DNA of 64,000 nt from Moorella sp. Hama-1 (lineage in GTDB: Bacteria; Bacillota; DSM-521; Neomoorellales; Neomoorellaceae). The stretch covers positions 1,980,501-2,044,500 of the forward strand of contig NZ_AP024620.1 of assembly GCF_023734095.1 (NCBI RefSeq). Direction: 5' to 3'. The notes beneath the pieces were generated by a model. It had not been told where the DNA came from. It did not search any database and saw only the letters and a list, made by a program, of their open reading frames with translations. The translations under genes and the position numbers were made by a program. Position 1 is the first letter of the stretch, and the number at the start of each line of letters is the position of its first letter. This document shows positions 13,532 to 51,270 of this stretch, one piece after another.

Positions 13532-14641
13532 CTATATTTGTGAAGTGTTTTCAATGGTTCCCCCGCCCACCACCAGGTCGTCCTGGTAGTAGACCACGGC
13601 CTGGCCTGGAGTGATGGCCCGCTGGGGTTCGTCAAACTCCAGCCTGGTCCGGCCTTCTGGCTGGGGATACAGGGTGGCCGCCGCTTCCGGAGCGCGGTAG
13701 CGGATTTTCGCCTGCACCCGGGCTCCCGCCGGCGGTTCGACCCAGAGGATATAGTTATTATCCCGGGCGTAAAGGACCCGTTGCGCCAGTTCTTCCTTAG
13801 CGCCGACGATAACGGCATTGCGTTCCGGGTCCAGGGCGACTACAAAACAGGGTTTGCCCAGGGCCAGGCCCAGGCCTTTACGCTGGCCGATGGTGTAGAA
13901 GGGCAGTCCCCGGTGCTGGCCCAGGACCCGGCCTGCTGTGTCCAGGATGGGACCGGGCCTGATGGCTGAGCCAGCGCGCTGCTGCAGGTAGTCGCGGTAA
14001 TCCCCCTGGGTGACGAAGCAGATCTCCTGGGACTCGGCCTTCCGGGCCACCGGCAGGCCGTAGCGGGCAGCTATTTCCCGCACCTCGGTTTTTAAATAAT
14101 CGCCCAGGGGCAGCAGGGTATGGGCGAGTTGCTCCTGGGTAAAGGTGTAAAGGGCATAGCTCTGGTCTTTACTGTCATCCCGGCCCCTGGCCAGCAGGTA
14201 ACGCTCTTTTTCTTGATCATACCAGCGCCGGGCGTAATGGCCGGTGGCAATATAGTCCATCCCCAGGGCCCGGGCCTTAGCCAGGAGGGCGCCGAATTTG
14301 ATGCGCCGGTTACAGGCGATACAGGGGTTGGGTGTTTCTCCTTCCAGGTAGGAAGCGACAAAATAATCGATGACCTCATGTTCAAAGAGGTCGCGAAAGT
14401 TAAGGACATAATAGGGTATATCCAGGATGTTGGCCACCCGGCGGGCATCGTCGACGGCCAAGAGGCTGCAACAGCCGCTTTCCCCCGGCGGTGGTGGTGC
14501 ATCCTCAGGCCAGAGGGCCAGGGTGACTCCAATTACCTCGTAACCGGCTTCCTTTAGTAAAACGGCGGCCGTGGAGCTATCCACGCCGCCGCTCATGGCC
14601 ACCATTACCTTTTCCTTGCGGGACGCTGTGGTCACCCCCAT
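13532..14641 (-). CDS. mnmA: tRNA-specific 2-thiouridylase
   Basis: Catalyses 2-thiolation of U34 in tRNA-Lys, -Glu and -Gln using sulfur passed from a cysteine desulfurase. The 369-aa protein has the PP-loop ATP motif (MSGGVDSSTAAVLL), the first catalytic cysteine in NPCIACNRRIKFG, the TGHYAR motif, and the second cysteine in ESQEICFV. It ends with the two C-terminal beta domains. It follows nifS and nifU, which supply sulfur and Fe-S clusters, and precedes the PRC-barrel gene. A diverged copy of the dispersed repeat (14642-14705) lies directly upstream. Confidence 0.97.
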   Translation of the reverse strand: MGVTTASRKEKVMVAMSGGVDSSTAAVLLKEAGYEVIGVTLALWPEDAPPPPGESGCCSLLAVDDARRVANILDIPYYVLNFRDLFEHEVIDYFVASYLEGETPNPCIACNRRIKFGALLAKARALGMDYIATGHYARRWYDQEKERYLLARGRDDSKDQSYALYTFTQEQLAHTLLPLGDYLKTEVREIAARYGLPVARKAESQEICFVTQGDYRDYLQQRAGSAIRPGPILDTAGRVLGQHRGLPFYTIGQRKGLGLALGKPCFVVALDPERNAVIVGAKEELAQRVLYARDNNYILWVEPPAGARVQAKIRYRAPEAAATLYPQPEGRTRLEFDEPQRAITPGQAVVYYQDDLVVGGGTIENTSQI

Positions 14642-14705
14642 AATATAGAAGTGAGAAGTGGGAGGTTGGAAGTTAGAGCTGGTAGAAACCGGCAGCTGTC
14701 GGTTT
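14642..14705. repeat. Diverged copy of the dispersed intergenic repeat, upstream of mnmA
   Basis: Purine-rich tract on the plus strand (GAAGTGAGAAGTGGGAGG-like), followed by an imperfect hairpin (AGAAACCGGC...GTCGGTTTCT). This is the same layout as the fuller copies upstream of nifU, the MBL gene and yajC. The hairpin could also terminate nifU transcripts. Confidence 0.6.
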
Positions 14706-14799
14706 CTAATTGAAGTCTACCTCTTTATTTACTATTCTCGTGTGAGTACCGGGCATAAGTATCCTGGTATGGATCGTTACCCGGTAAGCAAGGCCCGGC

Positions 14800-15186: not shown

Positions 15187-15345
15187 TCCTCCGAAATAAG
15201 ATGTGTGAGGTGGGAGGTGAGAGGTGGGAGGCTTGTCGAAACTGGCTGCGCCAGTTTCAGATTAAAGCCAGCCCACCTCGCATTTCTCCCGTTCGCTGGT
15301 GGAGTTTGCCCCTATGAGGGGCTCCTCCGAAATGATATGTGTGAG
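15187..15345. repeat. Dispersed intergenic repeat, copy 1 (upstream of nifU)
   Basis: Starts at CTCCTCCGAAATAAGATG beside the nifU start. It continues through a GAGGTGGGAGGTGAGAGG tract, a perfect hairpin (GAAACTGGC TGC GCCAGTTTC, 15238-15258), a TTTCTCCCGTTCGCTGG block and a CCCCTATGAGGGGCTCC hairpin, then begins a second partial copy (from about 15324). On the transcribed minus strand it supplies the GGAGGA ribosome site of nifU, preceded by a CCUCC-rich tract able to pair with it. The rest of the gap to nifS (15346-15446) shows only further repeat-like debris. Confidence 0.8.
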
Positions 15346-15446
15346 GTTGGTGGAGACATACCGCCATGTACGGTTCCTCACCCTTCTAACAACACCGCCG
15401 CCGAAGCTTTCAGCTTCACGTAAAGTATTACTGCACCCGCCGGCTC

Positions 15447-26683: not shown

Positions 26684-26890
26684 ATAAAAACCCCACAAAT
26701 GCCGTGAATGCCGTGTTTTTTGAACCTGCTCTCAGCAGGTGGGTACCTCCACGGGCATTTTTTGCTTCCCCTGAAAACTGGGGCCTGCAAGCCATGACCG
26801 GATATCAGGTTCCCTAAGTTTTGGTGTTGGCTCAAAACTTCACGGCTCTTCACGAACATCGCAGGGTAAACTCTGTACTTTCCTTTGACA
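26684..26890 (-). ncRNA. ssrS: 6S RNA
   Basis: About 200 nt on the minus strand between aspS and tcdA, with its own promoter. The ends form the closing stem: GTGAAGAGCCGTG pairs with CACGGCATTCAC. Inside it, the 3' strand has the family-typical bubble with a small hairpin (CCCACCTGCTGAGAGCAGG then TTCAAAAA), facing GTTTTGAGCC on the 5' strand. An apical arm lies further in. The 3' end runs into GTGGGGTTTTTATTTT. 6S RNA binds the sigma-A RNA polymerase holoenzyme by imitating an open promoter. The identical position next to aspS and yrvM in Bacillus supports the call. Exact ends are estimates. Confidence 0.82.
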
Positions 26891-30099: not shown

Positions 30100-30261
30100 G
30101 ACAGGCCTCCACAAATAAGATGTAGGATCCGCAAAGTAACGTAATCTAATATTGGGGGCTAAAGGTACAGCTCCGGGCTCCGGTTCTCGGCGAGCAAACT
30201 TAGCGCTCAGTTGCTTAAGCGGCGGGGTGGCTTGACATTATCTCATCAGAATAAAAGCAGC

Positions 30262-30304
30262 GGGGAGCGGAACTCTTCGTTCCTCAATTTACGTTCCGAT
30301 CCCC
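30262..30304 (-). terminator. Large stem-loop upstream of hisS, probable terminator
   Basis: On the minus strand a 12-bp stem with one mismatch (GGGGATCGGAAC/GTTCCGCTCCCC) and a 19-base loop, followed by GCTGCTTTTATT. It likely ends transcripts from the relA-dtd-MBL operon, which finishes at 30459. The rest of the 30100-30458 gap has a partial copy of the dispersed repeat (about 30420-30457) and no gene or recognisable riboswitch. Confidence 0.55.
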
Positions 30305-30458
30305 ATCCCGTTCACCGCCGCCTCGCTGTAGCTTCGCTGAGTTAGCTCTGCGCCTCGAACCAAGTCGCCCTCCGCCTGTAACCGCCAGCCCTCTACTCAA
30401 CCTGTATTTTCATATCTTCGTGGCGGGAGCGTCAGCCCCCATGAGGGGCTCCTCCCTA

Positions 30459-31090: not shown

Positions 31091-31234
31091 CTCCTCCGAA
31101 ATAAGATGTGTGAGGTGGGAGGTGAGAGGTGGGAGGCTTGGCGAAAAACTGGCTGCGCCCGTTTCAGATTAAAGCTTGCTCGCCTCTCATTTCTTCCCTT
31201 CGTTGGTGGCGGCCCGCCACCATGGTCGGCTCCT
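31091..31234. repeat. Dispersed intergenic repeat, copy 2 (upstream of the MBL gene)
   Basis: Near-identical to copy 1 over CTCCTCCGAAATAAGATG, the GAGGTGGGAGGTGAGAGG tract, the hairpin (AACTGGCTGCGCCCGTT, one arm slightly diverged) and the TTCCCTTCGTTGGTGG block. It then ends with a hairpin built of GGCGGCCCGCCACC. It fills the whole gap between dtd and the MBL gene. Confidence 0.8.
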
Positions 31235-31239
31235 CTGTA

Positions 31240-38810: not shown

Positions 38811-39764
38811 CTAATGGGGTGTCGCCTTGCGCGCTTTGCCTTTGGTTGCAGCTTCATTTTCCATTTTAACGGCCGTTTTAGAGATAGCAGCCTGGCGGTG
38901 GCGTTCTCGGGTTAAACGCCTTAAATCCACCCACAGGGGACTGGCATTAAAGATGGAGGAATAGCAACCACTAATGGTACCAATGAGCATAGCCAGGGCC
39001 AGGCCCTTGGTAGACTCGCCGCCCAGGACCAGCAGGGCCACCAGGGGGATAAGCACTGTTACTACGGTGTTGATGGAGCGACGCAAGGTCTGGTTGATGC
39101 TCTTATTGACTATCTCCTCAAAGGTTTCCCGTTTACGCAGGCGCAGGTTTTCGCGAACCCGGTCATAGATAACAATCGTATCGTGAACAGAATAACCGAT
39201 GATAGTCAGCAAGGCGGCTACGAAACCACTGTCTACCTCCCAGCGGAAGAAAGCAAAGAATCCCGTCACCACCAGTACGTCGTGGACCAACGCCAGGATG
39301 GCCGTCAAGCCGGAAAGAAAATCGCCGAAGCGGAGGGTGATATAAATAATCATCAACACCCAGGCCAGGGCCATGGCCTCAAGGGCTTTAATCTCCAATT
39401 CCCGCCCGATTACGGCGCCTACATGATCATTGCGGATAACTTCCATCTGTCCCAACTTGGATTGCAAAGCGCCGGTAACCTGTTTGACCTGGTTGTCATC
39501 AAGCTCCTTGCTGCGAATCAGGAATTCGTTGGCGCCTGATTCCTGGATTGAACTCTGGTTCAGGTTTAAGCTATCCATAACCTCCCGTACCTGGGCCGTA
39601 TTTACCGTCTGGTGAAATTTTACTTCTAAAATATTGCCGCCGGTAAAGTCAATCCCGTAATTTAAGAAGGGCCGGTGCAGGACCATAGCAATCAGTCCCG
39701 GGATAATGACCAGCAACGACAAAGCATACCACCATTTACGCTTGCCTATGAAATCAAAATACAT
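38811..39764 (-). CDS. secF: Protein translocase subunit SecF
   Basis: Inner-membrane subunit that, with SecD and YajC, uses the proton gradient to help the Sec channel finish export. Of 317 aa, it has the N-terminal FDFIGKRKWWYALSLLVI helix, the GIDFTGGNILEVKF motif, and the conserved membrane region with TIIGYSVHDTIVIYDRVREN and SINQTLRRSINT. The start overlaps the secD stop by one base (TAATG). Confidence 0.97.
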   Translation of the reverse strand: MYFDFIGKRKWWYALSLLVIIPGLIAMVLHRPFLNYGIDFTGGNILEVKFHQTVNTAQVREVMDSLNLNQSSIQESGANEFLIRSKELDDNQVKQVTGALQSKLGQMEVIRNDHVGAVIGRELEIKALEAMALAWVLMIIYITLRFGDFLSGLTAILALVHDVLVVTGFFAFFRWEVDSGFVAALLTIIGYSVHDTIVIYDRVRENLRLRKRETFEEIVNKSINQTLRRSINTVVTVLIPLVALLVLGGESTKGLALAMLIGTISGCYSSIFNASPLWVDLRRLTRERHRQAAISKTAVKMENEAATKGKARKATPH

Positions 39765-41053
39765 TAAGCCCCACCCCTTACCGTTGGCACTTGCTGGTCA
39801 GGCCCTTTTACCCCGTAAAAGCCATAACCCTGGAACCAGGGTACTTCGGCCACCAGGTGCAGTAAAAATCGCGTCAGAGTAACGGCTGTAAAGAAGCTGG
39901 CCAGGACACCCAAGCCCAGGTTGATAGCAAAACCCCGGACGGCGCCGCTGCCTAAATAATACAGGACTACCGCCGCCAGGATGGAGTTACTGTTGGTGTC
40001 GACAATAGTTACAAAGGCGTGCCGGAAGCCGGCGTCAATGGCCGCCCGCAGGGTTTTGCCGTTACGCAGCTCTTCCCGCAGGCGCTCATAGATCAAGATA
40101 TTGGCGTCAACGGCCATGCCTACTGAAAGCAAAATACCCGCTATGCCCGGTAAGGTTATGGTGGCCTTCAGTAGCCATAGAGCAGTCAAGATAATCAACG
40201 CATAAATAACCAGGGAAAATATAGCTACCACTCCTGGCAGGCGGTACATAGCCAGCATGAAGAGGGCAATAAGAACCATACTAACTATAATGGCATTTTT
40301 ACTCTTTGCCAGGGAATCGGCTCCCAGGGTTGGTCCCACGATCCGGTGTTCGATTAGTTGTACCGGTACCGGCAGGGCGCCGCCGCGGAGTAAAGCCGCC
40401 AGGTTGGCTGCCTCTTCAAAGTTGGCGAAACCGCCGGTGATACGGGCCGTTCCGTTGGGGATTGCTGTTTGCACCTGCGGGTTGGTCAATTGTTGTTGAT
40501 CGAGGTAAATGCCAATGGCCCGCCTGGGGTCGCCATAGGGATAACTATTAACCAACTTCTGGGTAACATCGGCAAACTTTTTGGTGCCTTCGGCATTGAA
40601 TTGCAGGGTGATCTCCGGTTCCCCGGTCGCCTGGTCGATGATGGCCTTGGCGTCTTTGAGGTCTTTACCGGTAACTACCACCTGGCCGTCGCTGGTCTTG
40701 AACTCCAGCTGGGCCGTCTTGCCGATCATCTTGATGGCTTCCTCCGGGTTGCTGACGCCGGCCAGCTCGATGATCAGGCGATCATTGCCTTCTTTTTGAA
40801 TTAACGGCTCGGCTATACCCAGCTGGTCGACCCGGTCCCGCATGACCCGTTCCAAGGCGGCCATATCTTCTGCGGTTACCGCATGGTCCGGCGTACTCTG
40901 GGCCTGGGCAACTACATGCACCCCACCTTTAAGGTCCAGGCCCAGTTTCATTGCGTTCATTAAAGGTTTAAAAGTGCCCAATCCCAGCGCCAGGATGGCG
41001 ATAAAAACGACGGCGAGCTTCAAAACGCCGCCTGCTCCTTTTCCCCCTGCCAA
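39764..41053 (-). CDS. secD: Protein translocase subunit SecD
   Basis: Partner of SecF. The 429-aa protein has the N-terminal helix, then LGLDLKGGVHVVAQA (D1 motif), the periplasmic domain with RVDQLGIAEPLIQKEG and AQLEFK, and the C-terminal RND-type membrane region (LPGIAGILLSVGMAVDANIL, YERLREELRNGKTL). TTG start with GGGAGG eight bases upstream. The promoter lies about 107 bases upstream, in a region framed by inverted copies of the dispersed repeat. Confidence 0.97.
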   Translation of the reverse strand: MAGGKGAGGVLKLAVVFIAILALGLGTFKPLMNAMKLGLDLKGGVHVVAQAQSTPDHAVTAEDMAALERVMRDRVDQLGIAEPLIQKEGNDRLIIELAGVSNPEEAIKMIGKTAQLEFKTSDGQVVVTGKDLKDAKAIIDQATGEPEITLQFNAEGTKKFADVTQKLVNSYPYGDPRRAIGIYLDQQQLTNPQVQTAIPNGTARITGGFANFEEAANLAALLRGGALPVPVQLIEHRIVGPTLGADSLAKSKNAIIVSMVLIALFMLAMYRLPGVVAIFSLVIYALIILTALWLLKATITLPGIAGILLSVGMAVDANILIYERLREELRNGKTLRAAIDAGFRHAFVTIVDTNSNSILAAVVLYYLGSGAVRGFAINLGLGVLASFFTAVTLTRFLLHLVAEVPWFQGYGFYGVKGPDQQVPTVRGGA

Positions 41054-41061
41054 AACTCTTG

Positions 41062-41110
41062 CCTCCCTTATGAGAAGTGAGATGTTAGAGGTTAGAGATG
41101 GGATACTTGC
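41062..41110. repeat. Diverged copy of the dispersed repeat (forward), upstream of secD
   Basis: Plus-strand purine-rich tract (GAGAAGTGAGATGTTAGAGG-like), followed by TTGCAGAAACCTCT. This is the same layout as copies 1-3 but without an intact hairpin. Confidence 0.5.
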
Positions 41111-41159
41111 AGAAACCTCTACCCCATAAAAATACCTTGCTTATAAGTGCGGACAATCT

Positions 41160-41188: not shown

Positions 41189-41224
41189 TTGCTCTGAATC
41201 CCTCTGCTGCTAAATCTTTCAAAC

Positions 41225-41288
41225 CAGGAACTGGCTTGAGCCAGTTCCTACCAGCCTCTCACCGCCAACTTCCCACATCTCACCTCCA
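41225..41288. repeat. Inverted copy of the dispersed repeat, downstream of the HD gene
   Basis: A perfect hairpin (GGAACTGGCTTGAGCCAGTTCC) is followed by pyrimidine-rich CCTCTCACCGCCAACTTCCCACATCT, the reverse orientation of the forward copies. As a hairpin just past the HD-protein stop, it may also act as a terminator. Confidence 0.55.
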
Positions 41289-41954
41289 TTACAGCAGTCG
41301 TGAATCATTAACAACCAGGCCGAAATGGCAGTCCAAAAAGCCGGCGGCCCGGCGGCACATCATCATCCGGCTCAAAAAGATCTCGAAGTACTCCATGGGC
41401 GTGCTGATGGTCAGGTCGATGCTCAGCTCCAGGGTAATGGCCCGCCGGCCGGCATCAACCCGCAGGAAGGAATGCTGGACGGCGTAATTAACCCGGTCGT
41501 GGATATCAAAGTTGGTGATATCTTTATTCCGCACCCGGGAACGGTGGACATCGGATTTATCGGCCAGGATCAAGGCCGCCCCCACCGGGTTGACGGCCTG
41601 GCCGTATTCCTCCTCATGATTACCGATGGCCCCCATAATGGTAGCCCCTTCGACGGCAGGCATCCCCAGGCGGGTTAAAATATGATAAGCCAGCAGGGCC
41701 CCCGTCTGGCCGTGATCCTGCCGGCTGACCACATTACCGATATCATGTAAATACCCGGCGATGGCCGCCAGTTCCGCCGCCCGCTGGGGAAAGCCCAGGC
41801 GTTCCAGGACATTACGGCTGATGCTGGCCACCAAATTCAGGTGGCGGTGGCTATGTTCAGTAAAGCCCATAGCCCCCAGGTGCTCATTGCCCCGGGTAAT
41901 CAGGGCCTCCACTTCCGGGTCCCTTTTTACTTCCTCAAGGGTTACCAGGGACAA
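41289..41954 (-). CDS. HD domain phosphohydrolase
   Basis: Metal-dependent phosphohydrolase-like protein of 221 aa. The HD motif is YLHDIGNVVSRQDHGQTG (about residue 70), with an upstream histidine (HSHRHLNLV) and downstream IGNHEEE and LADKSD, completing the metal site. The target nucleotide or phosphate ester is unknown. TTG start with AGGAGGG upstream, right after the yajC stop. The gene neighbourhood (yajC-HD-secD) recurs in Moorella-like Firmicutes. Confidence 0.9.
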   Translation of the reverse strand: MSLVTLEEVKRDPEVEALITRGNEHLGAMGFTEHSHRHLNLVASISRNVLERLGFPQRAAELAAIAGYLHDIGNVVSRQDHGQTGALLAYHILTRLGMPAVEGATIMGAIGNHEEEYGQAVNPVGAALILADKSDVHRSRVRNKDITNFDIHDRVNYAVQHSFLRVDAGRRAITLELSIDLTISTPMEYFEIFLSRMMMCRRAAGFLDCHFGLVVNDSRLL

Positions 41955-42244: not shown

Positions 42245-42389
42245 CTCCTTCGAAATGAGATATTAGAAGTGGGAGGTGAGAGGTGGGAGGCTTGGCGAAA
42301 CTGGCCGCGCCAGTTTCAGACTAAAGCTTGCCGAACTCTCATTTCTCCCGTTCGCTGGCGGCGTATGCCGCCATAAGGGGCTCCTTCGT
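42245..42389. repeat. Dispersed intergenic repeat, copy 3 (upstream of yajC)
   Basis: Same order of blocks as copies 1 and 2: CTCCTTCGAAATGAGAT, GAAGTGGGAGGTGAGAGG, hairpin GAAACTGGC CGC GCCAGTTTC, TTTCTCCCGTTCGCTGG, then a hairpin with GGCGGCGTATGCCGCC and GGGGCTCC. It fills most of the gap between tgt and yajC and provides the AAGGAG before yajC. Confidence 0.8.
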
Positions 42390-42447
42390 AAAAATTGGTC
42401 AGTTCTGGTAGATCATTCGACGGTACCGGCCGGAATACCTGCCACCT

Positions 42448-51001: not shown

Positions 51002-51027
51002 GGATAAAAACGTCGTGGCCACCTGTA

Positions 51028-51207
51028 AACGCCGAATTTCCTTGGCAGGAAAACGGGGGAACCAATCATTGGGGTTAATCCCGGTCCTTAGCAATAGTTC
51101 TATCTTGAGCAGGCTTTCCTTTAGGGGAAGCTCCAGCGAAGGAGAAATAGCTAGGGTCCGGGTAGGGCACTTCCGGCCCGCACCCGGCAGCTAACCCCGC
51201 AGGCGTT
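51028..51207 (+). promoter_or_regulatory. c-di-AMP riboswitch (ydaO/yuaA type)
   Basis: The leader of the CAP-domain gene carries the ydaO/yuaA consensus. The 5' strand ACGCC pairs with 3' GGCGT to close the structure. AAACGGGGGAACCA and GGGGTTAATCC follow at the 5' side. The 3' core is GGGTAGGGCACTTCCGGCC, then CCGCACCCGGCAGCTAACCC and CGCAGGCGTTGGAAGG, the most conserved part of the family. These riboswitches bind cyclic di-AMP and usually switch off cell-wall hydrolase and potassium/osmolyte transport genes. A GGAGG-rich stretch follows, so control could be on termination or on translation; no obvious terminator stem is seen. Confidence 0.88.
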
Positions 51208-51270
51208 GGAAGGAGGTGGATTTATTATTAGCAGGGCCAGGCGTAAAGCACAAAGAAGGAGGCTTTACCC

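Follow-up and report, generated by a model that had tools for sequence, protein, structure and literature searches.

Introduction

Insertion sequences (IS) of the IS110 family encode DEDD recombinases guided by bridge or seek RNAs, and systems built on them are under development as programmable DNA editors. Such elements can be stripped down considerably. In the seekRNA report, a mini-IS with ends of 29 and 16 bp was moved with its RNA supplied in trans (PMC11187229), and in the IS621 report a 22-bp donor was enough under the same arrangement (PMC11208160). Small dispersed repeats linked with elements of this type have been described in Coxiella, where the authors report none that affects the 5′ end of a gene of known function (PMC5896051). 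Here we describe two repeat families in a 64,000-nucleotide (nt) stretch of Moorella sp. Hama-1 (contig NZ_AP024620.1, positions 1,980,501 to 2,044,500; hereafter the window), which we call type B (near-identical repeats of about 146 bp) and type A (elements of about 350 bp). Both are probably non-autonomous elements of the IS110 lineage that take the Shine-Dalgarno (SD) sequence as their target and rebuild it with their right end.

Results

Relatives carry empty sites where the repeats stand

An earlier reading made from the letters of the window (the sequence-only reading) had noted three near-identical repeats before nifU, an MBL-fold hydrolase gene and yajC, and alignment confirmed all three as real and on the minus strand. 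NCBIfam models identified nifU (NifU_clost) and yajC, while the hydrolase has no model above cut-off. Two fragments that had been listed separately, near 30110 and at 30420-30457, turned out to be the two ends of a single type A element before hisS.

We compared the orthologous intergenic regions of same-genus relatives at these four sites. At yajC, the relative G010 is empty and reads TTTAGTAAGGAGTGGTGG; the corresponding stretch of the window consists of TTTACGAAGGAG, the element and then TTTCGAAGGAGTGGTGG. Eight relatives are empty at nifU (G010, for example, reads CCAGAAGGAGTGAGCA) and G004 carries a type-B-like copy there, while at hisS all nine of nine read empty, with a short gap that holds a GGAGG-like SD. 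Seven of nine relatives have neither type at the dtd-MBL site, although G001 has additional sequence of another kind there. In the remaining two, G009 and G010, the site is occupied by a type A element whose left junction closely resembles the one of the type B copy in the window. Insertion was precise at all four sites. That the empty sites of relatives hold nothing but a plain, ordinary SD indicates, as judged by sequence comparison, that type A and type B repeats are mobile DNA elements inserted into SDs. Such insertion explains their placement before starts without any regulatory role.

Both junctions carry a Shine-Dalgarno sequence

Of 92 copies, 78 have a left junction that terminates in GGAG, with varied bases before it, and the right junction terminates likewise in 76 of the 91 right ends that we read in the window's own genome. 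Because the right end is TTTCGGAGGAG, the element's own sequence, in most copies, the right-hand SD is usually brought by the element. The proposal that the repeat carries a ribosome-binding site thus stands, with the correction that an SD is present at both ends. Fifteen of the 91 right ends run into another element in tandem and 76 are single. A start codon follows 57 of the 76 single right ends at a distance of 2-14 nt and opens an open reading frame (ORF) of at least 60 amino acids (aa), compared with 21 of 98 GGAGGAG sites outside elements and 1089 of 8476 random positions, which bears out the suggestion that copies lie upstream of starts on the same strand.

The two types have their ends in common: on the left, AG followed by.C...CATG and a hairpin, and on the right, TTTC..GG-AG. 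The right-donor pattern.C...[CT]A[TC] is found at the left element end of 85 of 92 A and B copies, and TTTC, the start of the left-donor pattern, precedes the right SD in 78 of 91. Neither type has a recombinase gene inside, and both occur singly or in tandem. Six copies have a non-consensus SD on the left that recurs exactly on the right, against 0.59 expected by shuffling; this figure comes from a redone junction table, as an earlier comparison (p=0.18) used a loose pattern that misread right ends.

The repeats form a large dispersed family

The genome that contains the window comprises 3.32 Mb on one contig. Searching it for further copies, as the sequence-only reading had proposed, revealed a dispersed family. 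BLAST returned at least 44 type B matches (from 40 scored of 143 candidates) and at least 42 type A matches (from 40 scored of 162), and a profile search found at least 63 type B and at least 50 type A copies in 345 kb of fetched stretches; these stretches were chosen around matches and make up a selected tenth of the genome, so that the copy counts are lower bounds. Genome-wide, TTTCGGAGGA occurs 105 times, against 18 for its reversed control, and is often paired at a spacing of about 136 or about 355 bp. Type A is present in 11 of 18 family genomes and 10 of 11 genus genomes. At E<=0.001, type B has matches, mostly short and weak, in 10 of the 11 genomes of the genus, and at E<=1e-6 in 9 of 22 genomes of a class sample; only G004, G006 and the genome of the window have it in abundance. 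Separately, on the assumption that the replication origin lies near position 1, 87 of 113 elements are on the plus strand in the first half of the contig or on the minus strand in the second, as for genes transcribed with replication.

An IS110-family element in a relative has the same ends

The first ~50 nt of type A match several places in G001 at about 85% identity over about 48 nt, and the matching sequence there continues into a 1.7-kb IS encoding a 412-aa protein. This protein is a DEDD recombinase of the IS110 family with an IS116/IS110/IS902 C-terminal domain (matches to PF01548, E 8.6e-31, and PF02371, E 1.3e-20, each exceed the cut-off). Nine copies of the IS in G001 encode 100% identical recombinases; all of these copies begin with CCCCCCATGGGGGC directly after ..AGGAG and end in GATTTCGGAGGAG amid unrelated flanks (eight were aligned and the ninth was read separately). 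Eight of the nine are followed immediately by a start codon that opens an ORF of 98 aa or more, and thus the IS itself sits in SDs. From their N-termini, examined by eye, we take the downstream proteins to include phosphofructokinase, CobM and bactofilin types. G001 also holds a second IS110-type element (L249-L255) in seven copies, with 46% protein identity to the first and different ends near TTAGGTTATTTTCGTGTTAA.

The noncoding region of this clade holds a segment that matches the target

Related recombinases (G015, 81%; others, 54-57%) belong to elements with a common left end, AG followed by.C...CATG, a hairpin and ATGAAA. Read from the DNA, the noncoding region upstream of the gene contains a slot between GCCCG and GACC with the same letters as the host DNA to the left of the insertion, for example CAAAT-AG, TAACC-AG, TATTT-AG, GAAGT-AG, AGAGT-AG and AGCCA-AG. 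Slot and host left target agree at 57 of 60 positions over 12 elements; shuffling the pairings gave a mean of 19.4 and a maximum of 41, and none of 20000 shuffles reached 57. These 12, with one G001 copy of the nine among them, were drawn from 16 elements examined, G167a, G167b, G089a and G113 being left out because the patterns failed to detect the guide or the left end in them. Two of the elements have two tandem left ends. Both ends fit equally in G024, and in G196 we used the outer end (4/5), a choice favourable to the test; with the inner end (1/5 by hand count) the total falls to 54, which also exceeds the shuffled maximum. The slot of the G001 IS reads GGAGG-AG, so that the programmed target of this IS is the SD. 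For G015, an exchange at AG agrees with the host sequence only when the first AG is taken as the right core, whereas in the satellites, as we call the types that lack a recombinase, it is the last. At L278 and L279, two left ends of the clade stand in tandem, which suggests satellites in other genera too.

The interior of type A and variants with the same ends

The interior of type A is strongly conserved; of its 49 predicted pairs only 5 show changes on both sides, and the covariation term is -0.83. The type A stretch has no Rfam match at E<=1, HEARO included, and in a search for an SD guide inside the element the longest match was 6 nt (CGGAGG, in 12 of 42 copies), little above shuffles. Several variants accompany it. 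Three copies in the window's genome (C1:261725, 527763 and 1464025; L167, L168 and L053) follow type A for about the first 168 positions and then carry a different half, similar among the three and structured-looking. Mini-elements of about 80-170 bp in G009 and G010 (L209-L213) have the same left and right ends and also lie near starts, and in G001 and G002 (L202, upstream of the IS on the reverse strand; L208; L158) the same ends or flanks enclose other RNA-like interiors that are GGTATGTCCCGGAGCCGCG-like.

All copies in the window are collected in Table 1. Among the diverged copies that the sequence-only reading had named, two old type-B remnants do lie in sense before genes, and the inverted one sits behind its gene.

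Table 1. Repeats and structured RNAs in the window, numbered from its first nucleotide.
Feature	Position	Strand	Context
Type B element	15187-15332	-	Directly upstream of nifU; flanking SD copies included in the span; left TTTCGGAGGA at 15323-15332, right TTTCGGAGGA at 15187-15196
Type B element	31092-31238	-	Directly upstream of the MBL-fold hydrolase gene
Type B element	42246-42390	-	Directly upstream of yajC; GAAGGAG is both left and right SD
Type A element	30106-30455	-	About 350 bp, before hisS; structured-RNA-like interior; SD-like GGAGG at each end
Older type-B tail remnant	15323-15356	-	Tandem, left of the nifU copy; profile positions 114-147
Old type-B hairpin/tract remnant	14646-14723	-	In sense before gene 13532-14641 (presumably mnmA)
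Old type-B tail	41062-41117	-	In sense before gene 39764-41053 (presumably secD); also in relative G004
Old type-B hairpin/tract remnant	41222-41286	+	Inverted, behind gene 41289-41954
6S RNA	26686-26870	-	Over Rfam gathering score
c-di-AMP (ydaO) riboswitch	51020-51220	+	Over Rfam gathering score

Discussion

A proposed guided insertion that would restore the ribosome-binding site

Since A and B have their ends in common with the G001 IS, and mini-IS have been moved in trans in related systems, we infer that an IS110 recombinase of the G001 kind, either that IS or a sister since lost, moved them. Supplied in trans, the recombinase would act on a circle junction composed of the left donor ..TTTCGGAGG, the core AG and the right donor CCNNNCATG (in short form, TTTCGGAGG-AG-CCCCTCATGG). 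This junction would be joined to a host GGAGG-AG, picked by a guide RNA that reads GGAGG-AG and would pair with the DNA. The product would have the host left half-site plus AG on its left and, on its right, the element's own TTTCGGAGG-AG, or the left-matching variant in six copies, fused to the start codon. The gene would in this way keep an SD after insertion and its translation would be preserved, which would explain why elements are tolerated before hisS, yajC and nifU.

Several observations weigh against this account. Nineteen of the 76 single right ends are not followed by a start codon that opens an ORF of at least 60 aa, the left-right SD matches in six copies are unexpected from exchange at a 2-nt core, and the right ends of the IS and the satellites have only about 11 nt in common. 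The window's genome contains no IS110 of the G001 subgroup (0 matches at E<=1e-60), and its one PF01548 gene lacks these ends; among the 11 genus genomes, an IS with these ends was seen only in G001, whereas A and B reach their highest abundance in other genomes. Of the nine G001 copies, four have a left target identical to the guide, four differ from it at one position and one differs at two. Finally, the predicted loop of G001 has the guide on its 3′ side, an order reported for IS1111 (PMC11187229) and not for IS110/IS621 (PMC11208160), and donor guides were not resolved.

A bolder version would make these elements an RNA-guided parasite of translation starts: a guide that copies the SD opens nearly every gene start, the right end re-forms the SD and thereby makes insertion tolerable even for essential genes, and type A is a guide-RNA-bearing satellite whose conserved structured RNA of about 250 nt works in trans with the recombinase. 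We regard this version, the role for type A RNA included, as speculative and rather unlikely.

Alternative explanations

The six left-right matches are what a longer shared core would give, and together with the lack of a subgroup IS110 in the window's genome they speak for elements that resemble miniature inverted-repeat transposable elements and owe their movement to an enzyme of another kind, such as a tyrosine or serine recombinase with the SD-like crossover core GGAGGAG; the G001 IS110 would then have captured their ends. We find this quite unlikely, as all nine G001 copies end exactly at the common ends in differing flanks, the IS110 guide slot itself spells the SD, and the satellites have the right-donor pattern.C...CATG in common with the IS110 clade. 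Inside the elements we saw no other enzyme, although none was searched for directly.

The sequence-only reading had proposed that a CCUCC tract could hide the SD. The repeat would then be a cis-regulatory RNA, a translational switch kept by selection upstream of its genes. Both the placement before starts and the tract, which is complementary to the SD in most copies (helix 2, 97.7% paired cells), would suit such a switch; the folding predictions do not. In 31 type-B leaders folded in silico, the mean unpaired probability of the SD was 0.24, not below the 0.22 obtained with the upstream element shuffled (Wilcoxon p=0.20), and pairing of the SD with the tract averaged 0.20. Covariation had been suggested as a check, and across 35 type-B copies none of 14 pairs in the hairpin and the tract/SD helix changed on both sides, a result that the high conservation of these columns makes uninformative rather than refuting. 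An Rfam search of the window found nothing at gathering score for the repeats, its matches being 6S and ydaO. Moreover, the sites of close relatives are empty, the downstream genes are unrelated, 15 of 91 right ends lie in tandem arrays, and type A, in which the tract is absent, has the same placement as type B. We therefore consider the switch improbable; on these folding models it is unsupported, not disproved. What stands is a dispersed family that carries ribosome-binding sites in sense before starts and brings its own SD.

A further explanation, very improbable in our view, is that no recombinase is involved and that the elements spread through homologous recombination or gene conversion between repeats flanked by SDs. 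An apparent exchange of A and B at the dtd-MBL site, where the left junctions are very similar, and the 5′ ends common to both types speak for it, but the insertion sites in many unrelated genes offer only 5-7 nt of homology, the SD itself.

Comparison with known systems

If guided insertion into SDs is correct, a natural SD-programmed member of the IS110 family would show a guided element picking a functional motif common to most genes, and doing so harmlessly because the donor end restores the SD. It would account for the repeats found in about a hundred 5′ leaders of one genome, and would caution against reading such repeats as regulators. A search of the open-access literature returned no report of an SD target and none joining non-autonomous elements with bridge RNA.

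Leader RNAs that sequester the SD, such as riboswitches and RNA thermometers, place a structured RNA before it, as the repeats do; unlike them, the repeats show no occlusion beyond controls and no Rfam match, and their highly conserved columns show no covariation. The Coxiella repeats QMITE1 and QMITE2 are, like A and B, small, dispersed, non-autonomous and linked with an IS110/IS1111-type element, IS1111. There, however, QMITE2 serves IS1111 as a landing site and lies mainly in 3′ untranslated and intergenic regions (PMC5896051).

The seekRNA elements of the IS1111 and IS110 groups resemble the G001 system in having an RNA guide, a putative one in G001, in a noncoding region and in the top-strand-first order reported for IS1111; a mini-IS with short ends moves with its RNA in trans, as A and B would. 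The targets named in the available sections are REP, attC and other sites rather than SDs, and, unlike in those elements, the noncoding region here lies upstream (Siddiquee et al., PMC11187229). With IS621 and its bridge RNA, as far as the excerpted report describes them, the G001 IS has in common a DEDD recombinase, a lack of inverted repeats, a dinucleotide core, sequence-specific insertion and an upstream noncoding RNA region with a segment matching the left target (Durrant 2024, PMC11208160). It differs from the IS621 system of that excerpt in its SD target, its AG core and the position of the guide on the 3′ side of the loop, in a right donor end that spells an SD, and in the large satellite families, lacking a recombinase, that accompany it (PMC11208160).
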